A stretch of DNA of 64,000 nucleotides from positions 372,001 through 436,000 of the forward strand of contig NZ_JAENIK010000011.1 in the NCBI RefSeq assembly GCF_016595465.1, given 5' to 3'. The notes below the pieces were generated by a model that was given only the letters and a program-made list of their open reading frames with translations, did not search any database and was not told where the DNA came from. The position numbers and the translations under genes were made by a program. Source of the DNA: Luteolibacter yonseiensis (GTDB taxonomy: Bacteria > Verrucomicrobiota > Verrucomicrobiia > Verrucomicrobiales > Akkermansiaceae). The stretch's first letter is position 1. Each line of letters starts with the position of its first letter. Below, piece after piece: positions 2,806 to 32,312 of the stretch.

Positions 2806-5800
2806 TTATTTCGGCAGCGTGAGGCGGTAGAATTCCTTGTTGCCTTGCTGCGGCAAGGTGGTTTCCAAGGCTCCCACAGGTGCCCATGAACCGGCTCCCA
2901 ACGTGGTGGATCGCTCAAGCGGCAGGGACAGGTGGACCTCTCCACCTCGCACGCGGACCAGCACGCCTGTTCCGCGGAGATCCTGGATGCTGTCTTCGGT
3001 GTAGAGTCCGTGGCCGCCGGGATTGGCGAGCACTTCGTCGCGGCCGTCGTTGCGGACACCTTGCAGGGCGGCGAGTGCCTGCGGCGAGGTGATCGCCAGA
3101 AGCGGATCGAGGCCGAGCAGGCGGAGCGCGTCCGAGTATCGGTTGAAGTTCACGAGTTCCGCGAGGCTGTATGGCAGCACCACGTCGCTGCGCACGTCCA
3201 GTTTCTGGATGCGGAGGTCCGAAGTGGCGGGCGTGTCGGCGGTGCTGTAGGCCGTGGCGGGCGTGGCGTGGCGGGAGGCGAGGTAATCACCGAAGACCTG
3301 CTGCTCGCCGATGGGATTTCCCGGAAGCGAGGGGGGCACGGTGAAATCGTTCGCTTCGTCGAGAGCGGGACCCAGGGTGTTGTTCGCAAGGAGGTAGCGG
3401 AAGTTCGAGCCGTTCGCTTTCACCGGATAGCCGTCGCCATTGTTGGCGATGAAGTTCAGGGTGACGACGGTGATGTTTTCCGGAGTGCCTGCGACCAGCG
3501 CCCCATCCTTGTAAAGGGCGGCGGCGAGTTCGCCTTCGTCACCGATGAGCGAGATGGTGCGGATGCGGTCGCCTGCCGTACGGGCGGGATCCCATGCGAA
3601 GGAGACTCCGCCGAGCTGCGGGAAGCGGCCCTGGTTCGGCCACTGGGCCACGCCGTGCTCCAGGATGGCCTTGAGGCCGGCGGCGGTGGTGTCGAAGGCG
3701 ATGAGCTTGTTGTCGAAGCGCAGCGCATTTTCGATATCCAGGCGGGAAACGCCGCCTTCCAGCTTGCCGACGGCGGGGTTGGCCGGTGGCGGGAGTTTCA
3801 CCGCACTGCCGCCCGCGCTGGAGACCGCTCCGATCTGGGCGCGGATACCGCCGCCGTTTTTCAAGGAAACGATGGGGGCCGTGCTGCCGGTGATGGCCCG
3901 GAGCTTGCCGGCGTTCGCATCCGCCGTGATGTCGCCGAGGTTAGTCTCCTCGCTGCGGACGAAGGCGCGCTCGCCCTCCAGATAGACGCTGGTGTAGCCG
4001 AAGACCTCGCCGTCCTTGGCGCTGATGACGGCCTGCACGGCATCGGTGATGGCCTTCACTTTCGCTCCCTTGGTCCCGGGGGCGAAAGCGGTGGCGGCGA
4101 GATTGCCCACCGTGGTTCCCCATGCGGCGGCGGCGTTTTCCGCCGTGGCGGCTTTCGCTCCGTTCACGGCCTTGCGGTCGTCGAGCGAACCGAGGACGAG
4201 TTCCCCGTTTTCGTCGAAGTCCACGACAAGGCGTCCGAGGTAGGTGAACTCGTTGTCCGTGTTGACGATGAGGGCGGGCTTGCCGTCGAGGCCGGCGGTG
4301 CGGATCGGGTAGTCTCCGGCGAAGGTCGCGGCGTGGCCGGGGAAGGGCGCCGCCACGTCGTCGGAATCTCCGAGGCGGGTGTTGGAACCGGCGGAGAGGA
4401 CGATGTCCACGCCACTCAGCTTGGTGATGAGCGCCTGTTCGTTGGTGATCTGCTGGAGGTGGGCGAGCAGGATGATCTTGTTCACTCCCTCCGCGGCAAG
4501 CTCGTTGATGTAGGGCTGGATCTGGCTGGCGAGCAGGTCCATGTTGTCGCCGCCGGGAGCGCCCTTCACCTTCGTCCCGCTGGGGGATGAGATGGATTCG
4601 ATCAACTGGGTGGTCACGCCGACGAGGCCGATTTTTTCACCACCCTTGGTGATGACTGCGGTGGGGACGATCTTGCCCTTGTGGCCGGAGGCTTCCGGGA
4701 TACCGGTGGTGGCACCATCGAGCGCAACGTTGTTGAAGTGGGGGTTGATCGCCGCATCCCCCGAGAAATCAAGGTTCAGGCTGATGTGCGGGAACTGTGC
4801 GCCCACCCAGGCACCCGTCGCGCGGAAGGCGTCCGCGAAGACGTTCGAGCCGAGGTCCCACTCATGATTGCCGATGGCGGACGCCTCGACACCGAGAGCG
4901 TTGTGGATGGCGATGTCCGGCCGGGCGAAGGCCGTCGCTCCGATGCCGGGAACGGCGTTCAGCGAAGGATCCGTCCCCGCGTTGAGGAACGGGCTGGGGA
5001 TGAAATTGTCGCCGCCGGAGAGGATCAGGGTGTTTTCATAATCATCGTCGAAGGCATCCACCAGCGCGGCGAGATTCGGCGCGGTCTGGGAGGCGAGCAG
5101 CCCGGCCTCGCCATCGGAGAGGTGGAGAAGCTGCAGGGTGTAGTTGGGGGATGCTGCCGGAGTGAAGACGTGGAGGCCGGAGTTTTTCAGCTCGGGGGGA
5201 GCACCGGTTTTCAGGTTCCCTTCGGACACGAGGTAGATGACCCCGTCGTCATCCATGGTGATGCCTTCGATCGTCTGCCTTCCGATCATGCTGATGTCCA
5301 GGGTGGAAACCAGCCTGCCTTCGCGGGTGATCTCGACGATCTTCTCCGCATCGCGTCCCAGCAGCAGGAGATTGCGGTAGGATGGGTGGCCGGGTGGCAG
5401 GTATTTGCTGGCCGCGAGCACGAAGATGTCCGACACCGTGGCCAGGGAGGAGCCGTGGGTTTCCGCCAATCCGGCGCGGGTGAGCCACTTCCGTGCGATC
5501 GGCTGTGCGACAGAGAATTTGGTTCCAGCTTCGCTGACGCCCGGCACTCCGCTCATTTCATAGACCCTGCAGAGAGCCTGTTCCTTGAGACCCCAGATGG
5601 ATTTGTTGATCGGGTCGTATGCCACTCCCTCCAGATCGTTGTTGTTGGCGAGCGGGCCGAAGGGGTAGCTGGTCGGGGTGAGGTTCGTCAGTGTCCTCAT
5701 CGCGGCAGGATCGAAGGTGGTGATCCGCAGCATGTTGTCGCGTTCGTCGGCCACGCCGAAGGTATTGTTCCCGAGATAAGTGATTCCTTCGGGATCGTCC

Positions 5801-24161: not shown

Positions 24162-24470
24162 ATGGAAAATCAGAAAATTCGCATCCGCCTGCGCGCCTTC
24201 GACCATCGCGCCATCGACCGTTCCGCCCAAGAAATCGTCGAGACCGCCAAGCGCACGGGAGCCCGTGTCGCCGGCCCCATCCCGCTTCCGACCCGTATCG
24301 AGAAGTTCAGCGTCAACCGCTCGGTCCACGTGAACAAGAAGTCCGCCGAACAATTCGAAATCCGCACCCACAAGCGCCTGCTCGACATCGTCGACCCGAC
24401 CGCCCGCACCGTGGACGAGCTCAAGAAGCTCAACTTGCCAGCCGGTGTTGACATCACCATCCGTATCTGA
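24162..24470 (+). CDS. rpsJ: Small ribosomal subunit protein uS10
   Basis: 102 residues. It is a 30S head protein that, in other bacteria, also serves with NusB in antitermination. Signature '[21 protein letters not shown]' class helix and '[18 protein letters not shown]' loop are present. First gene of the S10 block, 60 bases before rplC. The leader is A/C-rich without Shine-Dalgarno. Confidence 0.96.
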
Positions 24471-27048: not shown

Positions 27049-27321
27049 ATGCCACGTTCCCTCAAAAAAGGCCCGTACGTTGATCAAAAGCTTCTTGCGA
27101 AGATCGACGCCGTCGCCGACGCCGGATCCGACCGCAAGCCCATCAAGACATGGAGCCGCAAGTCGATGATCACTCCGGATTTCGTCAGCCATAACTTCGC
27201 CGTCCACAACGGCAAGACCTTCGTTCCCGTTTACGTGACCGAAAACATGGTTGGCCACAAGCTCGGCGAATTCGCGCCGACCCGCCTGTTCCGCACACAC
27301 GGCGGTATTGGTAAGAAATAA
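27049..27321 (+). CDS. rpsS: Small ribosomal subunit protein uS19
   Basis: 90 residues; forms the uS13-uS19 complex in the 30S head. Standard '[16 protein letters not shown]' start and '[14 protein letters not shown]', '[17 protein letters not shown]' motifs. Normally rplV follows directly; here a 729-base gene for an exported protein is interposed. Confidence 0.96.
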
Positions 27322-27348
27322 TCAACCGGTTCCAGCTCCGCCTCGTTC

Positions 27349-28077
27349 ATGCGCTCGTCATTCCACCTCAAGGCACTTGCCCTCATCCTCGGATGTGTGG
27401 CCGCCGCAGGGGTGTGTCCGGCGCAGGGCGTGCCGACGGCGGAGCAGTTCCAGGAGGTGATCAACGAGCTCCAGGAACAGAACCAAACCCTCCGACGCAG
27501 CCTTGCCGAGGCAAACGGCGCCGAGAAACAGGCCTCCGAGCAGCTTGCTCAGGTCCGCCTGCAACTCAACGCCCTCGGCAAGAACCTGCTCGACGGGGGC
27601 GACGACCGCCTCATCGAGGCGGCCGCCAATCACGAGATCGACCAGGAAAGAATCAAAGATCTCGAAAACTCCGTCACGCGCCTCGCCGCAGCGGTCCAGG
27701 ATTACCTCCGCCATGCGGTGGTTTCCGACCCGGATGCGAGACTTCGTGTCGAAACTTCACTAAGAGAGCTTGACGCAGTCCTCGGACTACGCCAGAAGCC
27801 CCGCCCCGATGTTCGTAAAGGCACGCTCCAGCAAGCCCAGATCGTCAGCATCGACCCTGAAAGCGGCATGATGGTTTTCAACCTTGGCGAAGGCCAGGGG
27901 GCAAAAATTGGCATGACCTTTCGACTCACCCGCGGGCAACAGCCCTACGGAAAAGCCATTCTAGCAGACGTCCGCAAGGCCGTCAGCGGTGCCTTTGTCG
28001 AACAACTCGACAACGTCACCGAATCTCCACGCCCCGGCGATCTCGCCGTTCTCGAAACACAAGCATCAGCGCATTAA
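27349..28077 (+). CDS. Exported coiled-coil protein inserted in the S10 operon
   Basis: 242 residues, not a ribosomal protein. It has a signal sequence (residues 1-25, ending VCPAQG; the ILGC at 13-16 is a borderline lipobox). A Gln/Glu-rich coiled coil follows (about 30-85, 'FQEVINELQEQNQTLRRSLA'), then a second helical stretch (about 95-125). The C-terminal beta domain (about 155-235, 'IVSIDPESGMMVFNLGEGQG', 'KIGMTFRLTRGQ', 'PRPGDLAVLE') is like the small beta-barrels of MreC-type and other envelope proteins. It sits in the same direction, 27 bases after rpsS and 20 before rplV, so it must be co-transcribed with ribosomal genes. Codon use looks native. Function unknown; an envelope role tied to growth rate is a guess. 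Confidence 0.8.
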   Translation: MRSSFHLKALALILGCVAAAGVCPAQGVPTAEQFQEVINELQEQNQTLRRSLAEANGAEKQASEQLAQVRLQLNALGKNLLDGGDDRLIEAAANHEIDQERIKDLENSVTRLAAAVQDYLRHAVVSDPDARLRVETSLRELDAVLGLRQKPRPDVRKGTLQQAQIVSIDPESGMMVFNLGEGQGAKIGMTFRLTRGQQPYGKAILADVRKAVSGAFVEQLDNVTESPRPGDLAVLETQASAH

Positions 28078-28097
28078 CCACTCACGTTCGACGACCC

Positions 28098-28550: not shown

Positions 28551-29294
28551 ATGGGCCAAAAAGTAAATCCGATCGCATTCCGTCTCGCCGTCAACAAGGA
28601 CTGGCGCTCGAAGTGGTATGCCAGCGGCAAAGACTACACCGATAAGCTCCACGAAGATCTCGCGATCCGTGGCTACCTCAAGAACAAGCTCGTCAACGCC
28701 GGCCTCGCCCGCGTCGTCATCGAGCGTGCTTGGAACAGCGTGCGTGTCACCCTTCACACCTCCCGTCCGGGCCTGATCATCGGCCGTCAGGGCAAGGAAA
28801 TCGAAGTGATGACCAAGGACATCACAGGTCTTTGCAAGGGGGCCCAGGTCAAGATCGACATCATCGAGATCCGCAAGCCCGAGCTTGACGCACAACTTGT
28901 CGCCGAGCAGATCGCCGTGCAACTCGAGCGCCGTATCTCTTTCCGCCGCGCCATGAAGCGTGCGCTTCAGACCGCCATGGAATTCGGTGCCGAAGGCATC
29001 CGTCTCCGTTGCGCCGGCCGCCTCGGCGGTGCGGACATCGCCCGCGCCGAAGGCTATCGCGAAGGCAAGGTGCCGCTTCAGACCCTGCGTGTTCCTCTCG
29101 ACTACGGCTTCGCTGAAGCCCGCACCCTTTACGGCATCATCGGCGTGAAGTGCTGGGTCAACAAGAAGGAAGACGACGGCACCGGCGGCCGCCCGCAAAA
29201 CGAGCGCGGCGATCGTAACAACCGCGGTGATCGCGGTGGTGACCGCCGTGGCGGTGACCGTGGTGGCGACCGCCGCCCACAGAACCGCAACTGA
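28551..29294 (+). CDS. rpsC: Small ribosomal subunit protein uS3 with Gly/Arg/Asp tail
   Basis: 247 residues; part of the mRNA entry site and helicase activity of the 30S. The KH domain ('RPGLIIGRQGKEIEVMTKDI') and the C-terminal S3 domain ('RRAMKRALQTAMEFGAEGIR', 'GRLGGADIARAEGYREG') are complete. After residue about 212 comes a repetitive low-complexity tail of RGD/RGG type (NNRGDRGGDRRGGDRGGD) ending PQNRN, which is much longer and more Gly/Arg-rich than usual. Confidence 0.96.
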   Translation: MGQKVNPIAFRLAVNKDWRSKWYASGKDYTDKLHEDLAIRGYLKNKLVNAGLARVVIERAWNSVRVTLHTSRPGLIIGRQGKEIEVMTKDITGLCKGAQVKIDIIEIRKPELDAQLVAEQIAVQLERRISFRRAMKRALQTAMEFGAEGIRLRCAGRLGGADIARAEGYREGKVPLQTLRVPLDYGFAEARTLYGIIGVKCWVNKKEDDGTGGRPQNERGDRNNRGDRGGDRRGGDRGGDRRPQNRN

Positions 29295-30736: not shown

Positions 30737-30770
30737 GCCCGGGAGCGGGTTGTATGACCCGTAACTTTGA

Positions 30771-30809
30771 AAACGTCCCGAGTGGCCAGCCACTTGGGAC
30801 GTTTTTTTT
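30771..30809 (+). terminator. Strong rho-independent terminator after rplN
   Basis: A long stem, AAACGTCCCGAGTGG / CCACTTGGGACGTTT with one G:T pair, immediately followed by eight T. It starts 34 bases after the rplN stop and would end the first ribosomal transcript. Confidence 0.9.
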
Positions 30810-31978
30810 GTGCGACCCGATCCATATTCCCCAGCTGATCTCATCCGGGGACCCTTTAAGGGCGTTGCCGGGATCCGCCGATAAACGACAGGGGGCTGCT
30901 TCAGGTGAAAAAGACGGATGGATCGTCTCGTGAATTGATGTGCGAAACGCCACAGATTCCTGACGATGCGTCGTCCTGTCGTTGCGTTTGTTTGGAAGCC
31001 TGTTGATCGGGGCCCTTCTCCTCCTCAAGGAGCATTATCTCAATTGCGGTATTCCCGGTGGCGGGATTCCATGCCGCGTTCAGGGGGGGCCGCCGTTGCC
31101 ATTCCGTGCCGGCGGATTGGTTACGAAGCTGCGGTAGGGCTGTGCTTGATCCGGCTTTGCGATCGGCGTCGATAGTCACTTGCGATGGTCGGTATGATTC
31201 CGCATGAAGCGACCGGTCTCCGCGGGTTCTGGTGTGGAGAGATCCCAAATGGCGGACCGCAAGCGCCGTCTCTCCCACGAGGGTTTTTCGACGCGTTGTC
31301 CCACCGGCATCATGTGTGATGCTCTCCCTGACCGGGAAGAGGACGATTGATCCAACGGAACGACTGGCGGATGGCAAACGCCGAAGTCGGCAGCCGGGAT
31401 CAAGCGTCGCCTGATTTCTGAAAGTAACGCTCCCCGCTGTGTCAGAAGGAATGCTCCGACCCTGCGGCAGTCGTTGCTCCATTGGGGGCAGCTTCCGCCA
31501 GCTGAAATGAGCGTTGATTTTTCTGAAGCCTTACCATTGCTCTGATCCGCCGCACTGGATCAATTCCCGGCTTGGTCGATAACTCTGCCAAATCCGGCGG
31601 GAAGCCTATCACTTTGATGAAGAGCCCACCCTTTCGCAGAGACGTATGAGGGCCAATCTTGAAACCGGAGTATTCCTGTCTTTTTCCATTTATTGGATTC
31701 ACCTCGCTTTGAATCAATGAGTAAGGATGCATCTTGGCGTTTGCCCACCCTTAACATCCGCATGAATTCCTAGCATCCTGGACAAGTGTGAGGCAGGCGG
31801 TTTTCCGGTGACGGGAATAGAAAAGGGTGATTGACGGGAAGGGCGTCGGATTGCGACCGATCGGTGCCCACAGTGCCTGGATCGCCGGGACAAATCCCTC
31901 CGGAGGTGGTTCTTTCCCGGTTTGGTGGGATGTTTTGAGGGATTTTTATAAAAATCCGCAGGTTTGTTCAAAAAGGGC
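30810..31978. other. Non-operonic spacer splitting the S10 and spc blocks
   Basis: About 1.17 kb between the rplN terminator and the promoter of rplX. Base and codon composition is less GC-rich than in the flanking genes. It contains no recognisable gene. Two weak candidates are listed: a minus-strand frame at 31442-31732, and a plus-strand frame at 30982-31137 (TTG start) encoding a hydrophobic stretch 'LRLFGSLLIGALLLLKEH' followed by a Gly/Pro-rich end. It may be the remnant of inserted or decayed genes. Confidence 0.6.
31442..31732 (-). CDS. Possible small hypothetical protein or gene remnant in the ribosomal spacer
   Basis: A 96-codon frame starting MHPYSLIQSEVNPINGKRQE with a mixed, protein-like composition ('FIKVIGFPPDLAELSTKPG', 'DPVRRIRAMVRLQKNQRSF') but no recognised domain. 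Its codon usage is AT-richer than that of its neighbours. It is opposite in direction to the operon. It could be a decayed or acquired fragment. Confidence 0.25.
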   Translation of the reverse strand: MHPYSLIQSEVNPINGKRQEYSGFKIGPHTSLRKGGLFIKVIGFPPDLAELSTKPGIDPVRRIRAMVRLQKNQRSFQLAEAAPNGATTAAGSEHSF

Positions 31979-32006
31979 TTGCAGGGTTGCCCGCTATTCC
32001 TATGTT
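31979..32006 (+). promoter_or_regulatory. Sigma-70-like promoter of the spc block
   Basis: TTGCAG (31979-31984), 16-base spacer, TATGTT (32001-32006), followed by CGCCGCC. This has the same spacing and the same downstream CGCC as the promoter before rpsL. It lies 75 bases before rplX and after the only strong terminator, so it explains how the second half is transcribed. Confidence 0.55.
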
Positions 32007-32081
32007 CGCCGCCCCCAAGCAGGGTACCCACGTGTTTCAGGCGAAATGCGTCATCGTGCTTGGGATAACCGAATCCATTTC

Positions 32082-32312
32082 ATGAGCCGCATCAAGACAC
32101 ACGTCAAAAAAGGCGATCAAGTCGAAATCATCGCAGGCAGTCACAAAGGCAAGCGCGGCACCGTGCTCCTTGTGAACGCTGAAAAAGGCAAGGTCACCGT
32201 CGAAGGTGGCCGCCCGATCATCAAGGCGACAAAAGCCACTGAAGCCGACGCAGGTGGTCTCAAGACCATCGACGGCGCCGTCCACATCTCCAATGTCAAG
32301 AAAGTGGGCTGA
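32082..32312 (+). CDS. rplX: Large ribosomal subunit protein uL24 (short form)
   Basis: 76 residues, compared with about 104 in E. coli; an assembly initiator of the 50S. The KOW motif region '[20 protein letters not shown]' and the '[12 protein letters not shown]' segment are present; the protein ends right after, lacking the C-terminal extension. First gene of the second ribosomal transcription unit. The ATG at 32082 gives the canonical [12 protein letters not shown]. Confidence 0.93.

Follow-up and report, generated by a model that had tools for sequence, protein, structure and literature searches.

Why does a gene for a probably exported protein lie between rpsS and rplV, one of the least variable junctions in bacterial genomes, and what keeps it there? 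In the window, the whole stretch of 64,000 nucleotides analysed here from the 5.7-Mb genome of Luteolibacter yonseiensis, a ribosomal protein operon extends along the + strand from rpsJ (24162) to beyond rplR and contains such a gene, hereafter gene X. A preliminary description had placed X between the two ribosomal genes with spacers of 20 and 27 bases, and this was borne out: X is an intact ORF of 242 codons with an ATG start at positions 27349-28077 (+), encoding 242 aa.

Position of gene X in the S10 operon

Upstream of X lies rpsS (ribosomal protein S19; 27049-27321, +), identified by its ORF and by homology across loci, and a 27-base spacer (27322-27348) in which neither a terminator-like nor a promoter-like site was found. 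Downstream, a 20-base spacer (28078-28097) leads to rplV (ribosomal protein L22; 28098-28517, +), the gene beside which X is kept when the operon is split, and then to rpsC (ribosomal protein S3; 28551-29294, +), recognised from its ORF and from the loci read. The preliminary description had named a promoter and a terminator of X's own as grounds for refutation; neither appeared. Between positions 24400 and 30100 the + strand carries no terminator-like site; all nine sites detected lie on the - strand, and their number equals that in shuffled sequences. The sole promoter-like match on the + strand falls within rpsC, the other one being on the - strand. X thus shares with the genes of the S10 operon its strand, its position within the operon, the short spacers and the lack of a + strand terminator-like site. 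A search for Rfam elements near X revealed none over threshold; the single match, in rplB, had an E-value of 0.33 and stayed below the gathering threshold.

Further downstream, a stretch of 1.37 kb separates rplN and rplX (30737-32102), a distance of only about 55-66 bases in three relatives (L033-L035). This stretch is single copy in the genome, has a GC content of 0.56 (0.60 for the window), contains ORFs of up to 193 aa and gave no match in an Rfam scan. It represents either a strain-level insertion or an operon break.

Conservation of gene X beside rplV

A search for X sequences revealed matches in 56 of 59 genomes (the own genome included) and in all 42 genomes with at least 90% completeness and at most 5% contamination. 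X preceded rplV in each of the 52 loci read, from 30 genus genomes (own included) and 22 order genomes; four further genus matches were left out of this reading. On the far side of X, rpsS was found in 51 of these 52 loci, and in the remaining one the contig ends first. The spacer between X and rplV measures 4-38 bases in most of the genus- and order-level genomes. The same rpsS-X-rplV arrangement was present in the four nearest records (Akkermansia sp., Akkermansiaceae, uncultured Verrucomicrobia and Prosthecobacter), two of which equal counted contigs in size and are probably the same sequences.

The class-level search gave a match at E 1e-4 in 191 of 286 genomes. X lay between rpsS and rplV in all 30 loci returned by this search, nine of them from genomes in the sets above, and in 50 of the 52 class-level loci fetched. 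One exception (G147) is a second copy in a genome whose other copy occupies the rpsS-rplV site; the other (G205) is a best match away from the site, in a genome with a weaker second match outside the reading. In one further locus (L138, from G174) X lies about 1.1 kb from rpsS and about 0.3 kb from rplV, and this locus may hold an insertion on the rpsS side.

In a count over loci from genus to phylum level, X is kept beside rplV in genomes of 59 family labels. The search for the gene at the same locus across Verrucomicrobiota, which had been proposed as a check, thus found X in relatives with open reading frames, rather than absent from them or disrupted. A recent local insertion of X was rejected, given matches at the same site across genus, order and class.

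Beyond the class, a phylum search detected X in 141 of 288 genomes. We tested rpsS in 30 X-matching genomes from other classes, which we take to be probably Kiritimatiellae- and Lentisphaeria-type groups. In 22 of them rplV follows rpsS, and a barrel ORF lies between the two genes in 21 of these 22. The remaining eight showed no ribosomal gene in the 1.4 kb after rpsS. When these eight and eight more matching genomes were tested at rplV, X was found directly before rplV in 15 of the 16, the exception being G346, where X is missing at this place; like the rpsS-tested set and the picked class set described below, these genomes were chosen by match status, and the fractions are not estimates.

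All eight genomes with both ends in view have an S10 operon broken between rpsS and rplV, with X retained on the rplV side (loci L178, L190, L193, L199, L203, L204, L206 and L207, paired with L225, L227, L228, L231, L233, L235, L237 and L240). In these split lineages X opens the rplV-rpsC-rplP half of the operon. The link of X is to rplV and survives operon splitting, and is stronger than the preliminary description knew.

In one of the split genomes (G416; L233, about 5142-5797) the X region before rplV consists of two overlapping ORFs of 104 and 134 aa in different frames, reflecting either a sequencing error, a frameshift or the use of another start.

Absence and short forms of X

For samples independent of match status, we searched rplV in two evenly drawn sets of genomes that had nine members in common. 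X was found directly upstream of rplV in 17 of 30 genomes of the phylum sample (nine with rpsS before X and eight without) and in 20 of 30 of the class sample. The search profiles had been trained on sequences that included at least three of the sampled genomes (G000, G066, G343). No X was found at rplV in 10 of the 30 class genomes and 13 of the 30 phylum genomes, two genomes of 0.9 Mb included, which shows that X is common and not universally required; counted as absent were weak matches to ORFs overlapping rplV in L253 (E 0.0036) and L212 (E 0.009) and to a distant ORF in L254 (E 0.006). The genus label g41 comprises both states, with two 0.9-Mb genomes without X and a 2.5-Mb member with X. 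A search for an X remnant in the gap of the 0.9-Mb g41 genomes revealed similarity at chance level only.

Among 30 class genomes picked for a weak or missing X match, rpsS could be located in 28. Six of these 28 have a short form of X at the same place (the mini form, 110-130 aa), which consists of a signal-like start and the barrel and does not have the long helices. In the other 22, no recognisable X follows rpsS; the gaps are at most 219 bases in 21 of them, and in G109 a gap of 553 bases holds an ORF without a barrel as judged by eye.

Sequence evolution and codon use

Alignments of X with six genus relatives showed 71-81% identical aa, compared with 89-99% for the ribosomal neighbours examined, and X thus diverges faster than the neighbouring genes. 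The dN/dS ratios of these six pairs, about 0.22-0.27, indicate purifying selection. Over 114 of 116 loci, pairwise distances of X and rpsC correlated with a Spearman coefficient of 0.66, a value reached in none of 500 permutations. The distances of X track those of rpsC, as expected for vertical descent, which makes horizontal spread into the site unlikely.

The preliminary description had attributed native codon usage to X. This holds for comparison with ordinary genes: the codon adaptation index of X, calculated against the ribosomal set, is 0.50, with a median of 0.485 for the ordinary genes of the window and lower values in 10 of 17. It does not hold for the ribosomal and fusA genes, whose indices of 0.58-0.72 (n=12) all exceed that of X. 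This ordinary codon adaptation, below that of the ribosomal and fusA set, implies that synthesis of X probably falls short of that of ribosomal proteins.

Profile alignments show that the different forms of X are homologous. X from the split lineages aligned with the window type over 230 columns covering helices and barrel (hhalign E 6.7e-26), whereas for the other group from other classes only the barrel aligned (86 columns, E 3.6e-24). The mini form is homologous to the X barrel (E 2e-14). In 39 aligned sequences the barrel residues G180, G188, R209 and D231 are invariant, and L76-G77 in the first long helix is near-invariant.

Predicted architecture of the X protein

The claim that X encodes a signal-peptide, coiled-coil and barrel-ended protein agreed, as a prediction, with our analysis, which showed a hydrophobic N-terminus and, in the structural model, helices followed by a six-stranded barrel. 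Residues 1 to about 26 (27349-27426, +) form a probable signal peptide ending in AQ, recognised as a hydrophobic segment of low pLDDT with the cleavage site placed by eye. The best 13-mer of this segment has a mean hydrophobicity of 2.55. Of 76 members in four alignments, 72 have a hydrophobic 13-mer within their first 75 residues, compared with 22 that have one further on; a lipobox-like motif was detected in 7 of the 76. Judged from its sequence, such an export-signal-like N-terminus would argue against a cytoplasmic, ribosome-bound protein.

In the model, two long helices (residues 31-80 and 85-121; 27439-27711, +), which we read as a helical hairpin or coiled coil, are followed by a third helix (residues 128-145; 27730-27783, +) and a C-terminal six-stranded barrel (residues about 159-238; 27823-28062, +). 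The barrel resembles the FlgT C-terminal domain (FlgT_C) and, from model, fold matches and alignments, is common to all X forms compared. The model has a mean pLDDT of 84, with the strands from residue 162 to 235 mostly at 95-97. A second model, of X from a split lineage, displayed the same order of elements with a mean pLDDT of 78. The pTM values are low (0.46 and 0.32, respectively), so that neither model fixes the domain arrangement or the oligomer state.

Fold and family comparisons

Among the fold matches listed for the X model (Foldseek, VIA-align), the top ones were 8z5n (E 1.6e-5, Z 11.5; rmsd 1.9 over 73 residues, model residues 161-237), chain 0 of the LPHT ring, which we take to be FlgT, and FlgT 3w1e (E 6.3e-5, Z 10.8). 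These were followed by F1/V1-ATPase barrels (Z 9.3-9.7) and by MreC (7eft, Z 9.4; 2j5u, E 5.9e-3). With the second model, FlgT (3w1e, E 1.0e-4) shared the lead with a G1-ATPase chain, F1/G1-ATPase barrels matching that model as well as FlgT does, and MreC reached E 8.7e-4.

The predicted barrel of X thus has the fold of the FlgT C-terminal domain (PF16538). FlgT as a whole has further N-terminal domains and a role in a flagellar ring. This layout was not found in X: only helices precede the barrel in the model, in place of the other FlgT domains, and the neighbouring genes are ribosomal, not flagellar. By sequence, PF16538 gave no match to the window protein up to E 1, and weak matches (E up to 0.1) in 6 of 39, 3 of 18 and 0 of 13 relatives, with best values of E 0.0089 in the first set and 0.01 in the second.

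PDB sequence searches with X revealed nothing strong. The best profile match was TsaP (3jc8_Ta; E 0.0093), marginal and short with 36 positions (Foldseek E 0.011); TsaP is named a LysM-domain protein, and no LysM match was detected in X. In Pfam and NCBIfam the window protein remained below every curated cut-off listed. The best matches of its relatives were E 3e-5 in Pfam (Phage_scaffold) and E 2.1e-4 in NCBIfam (MreC), and we took their Phage_scaffold, MreC, SMC and ZapB matches to reflect probable coiled-coil similarity.

A search of the published literature revealed no description of gene X. The PVC signature protein CT421.2, reported also from Chlamydiae and Planctomycetes, is given a length of about 53 to more than 80 aa (PMC3444138) and, in this comparison by length, is much shorter than X. 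For V. spinosum, 100 essential proteins with unknown function have been reported (PMC12283558).

Possible role of X in the cell envelope

The best-matching barrels are those of envelope rings or ring-shaped ATPases, and MreC forms filaments, so that an envelope role in which X packs with itself or with a partner is the most economical reading. In the explanation we favour, to which we give about an even chance, X is an exported or membrane-anchored envelope scaffold that is co-expressed with ribosomal proteins and vertically inherited. The place of its gene in the S10 operon, immediately upstream of rplV, would date from early in the history of Verrucomicrobiota. Once exported, the protein would lie in the periplasm; in some lineages a lipid anchor or an uncleaved signal may keep it tethered. 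The helices may give it reach or allow oligomerisation, and the FlgT_C-type barrel may pack against its like or against a partner in the envelope. X would then serve the cell envelope as a structural scaffold or as part of a ring. If X is carried on the S10 transcript, its supply would follow ribosome production. Average codon bias (against very high synthesis), the mini form without long helices, the patchy absence and the weak FlgT_C similarity by sequence all weigh against this explanation.

A precedent for such a location is secY, an envelope-related non-ribosomal gene that sits in the spc ribosomal protein operon and is near-universal and essential. X would likewise be non-ribosomal, envelope-related and fixed in a ribosomal protein operon; unlike secY, it is patchily absent (within the one phylum searched) and is not a translocon.

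The same precedent would suit a function of X in protein export or outer-membrane protein folding, as a periplasmic hairpin chaperone or a factor on the side of the translocon, with export capacity following translation capacity. We consider this rather unlikely. The predicted export signal, long helices and barrel would fit, and an OmpH match was found in 1 of 13 members (E 0.037). The latter, however, is near chance for a coiled coil, and neither the mini form, which has no helices, nor the lineage in which only the barrel aligns agrees well with a hairpin chaperone.

The preliminary description had proposed that the C-terminal domain resembles MreC-type barrels and that X may act in cell shape or wall synthesis. 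The resemblance stood in so far as MreC is among the fold matches of both models; X is nevertheless improbable as a divergent MreC paralogue with a role in organising wall synthesis. In its favour, X would share with MreC an exported N-terminus, a coiled coil and a barrel in this order, as predicted from sequence and model; three NCBIfam MreC models each matched 1 of 39 members, PF04085 matched 1 of 18 (E 0.046), and the MreC chain 9dvb was matched at E 0.035. MreC, which assembles into filaments, has two consecutive beta domains after its coiled coil, whereas both X models contain one six-stranded barrel. Moreover, FlgT fits the first model better, the unrelated ATPase barrels score like MreC, and many relatives do without X. 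X as the MreC orthologue was rejected, PF04085 giving no match to the window protein up to E 1 and the one MreC of the genome (PF04085, over cut-off, 115 bits) lying at another place.

That X is a passenger, kept only because disruption of the operon would be costly, is quite improbable: absence without loss of the neighbouring genes and ordinary codon use would fit, but purifying selection, the vertical signal and the retention beside rplV after the operon split do not. Least probable of all is a role mainly in cis, in which translation of X or its mRNA would set expression from rplV onwards, the protein being secondary; the lasting adjacency to rplV and the short rplV spacers would suit it, whereas selection on the protein, conserved barrel residues, lineages without X and the lack of an Rfam element nearby speak against it.

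To return to the envelope scaffold, the persistence of a non-ribosomal, probably exported protein gene beside rplV, even in divided operons, suggests that selection maintains a connection between the envelope and the making of ribosomes. A bolder version, which we regard as unlikely, sees X as the envelope side of a growth coupling specific to the phylum, in which an oligomeric scaffold has been wired to rplV since early Verrucomicrobiota and envelope assembly would be paced by ribosome production. Where the operon is split, X heads the rplV-rpsC half and could also be an entry point for the control of ribosomal protein expression. X offers a concrete gene for asking how Verrucomicrobiota, relatives of Akkermansia included, match their envelope to biomass growth, and its natural absences serve for comparison.

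Proteins similar to X also occur elsewhere in genomes of the same order. Eight of ten loci away from rpsS-rplV (L058-L067) match the X profile and represent paralogues. Five of the loci were inspected by eye: L060 holds two adjacent helix-barrel ORFs of 371 and 261 aa, and an ORF of this kind, 364-383 aa long, adjoins the matched place in L058, L061 and L066. X seems to belong to a wider family of envelope proteins with helices and a barrel.
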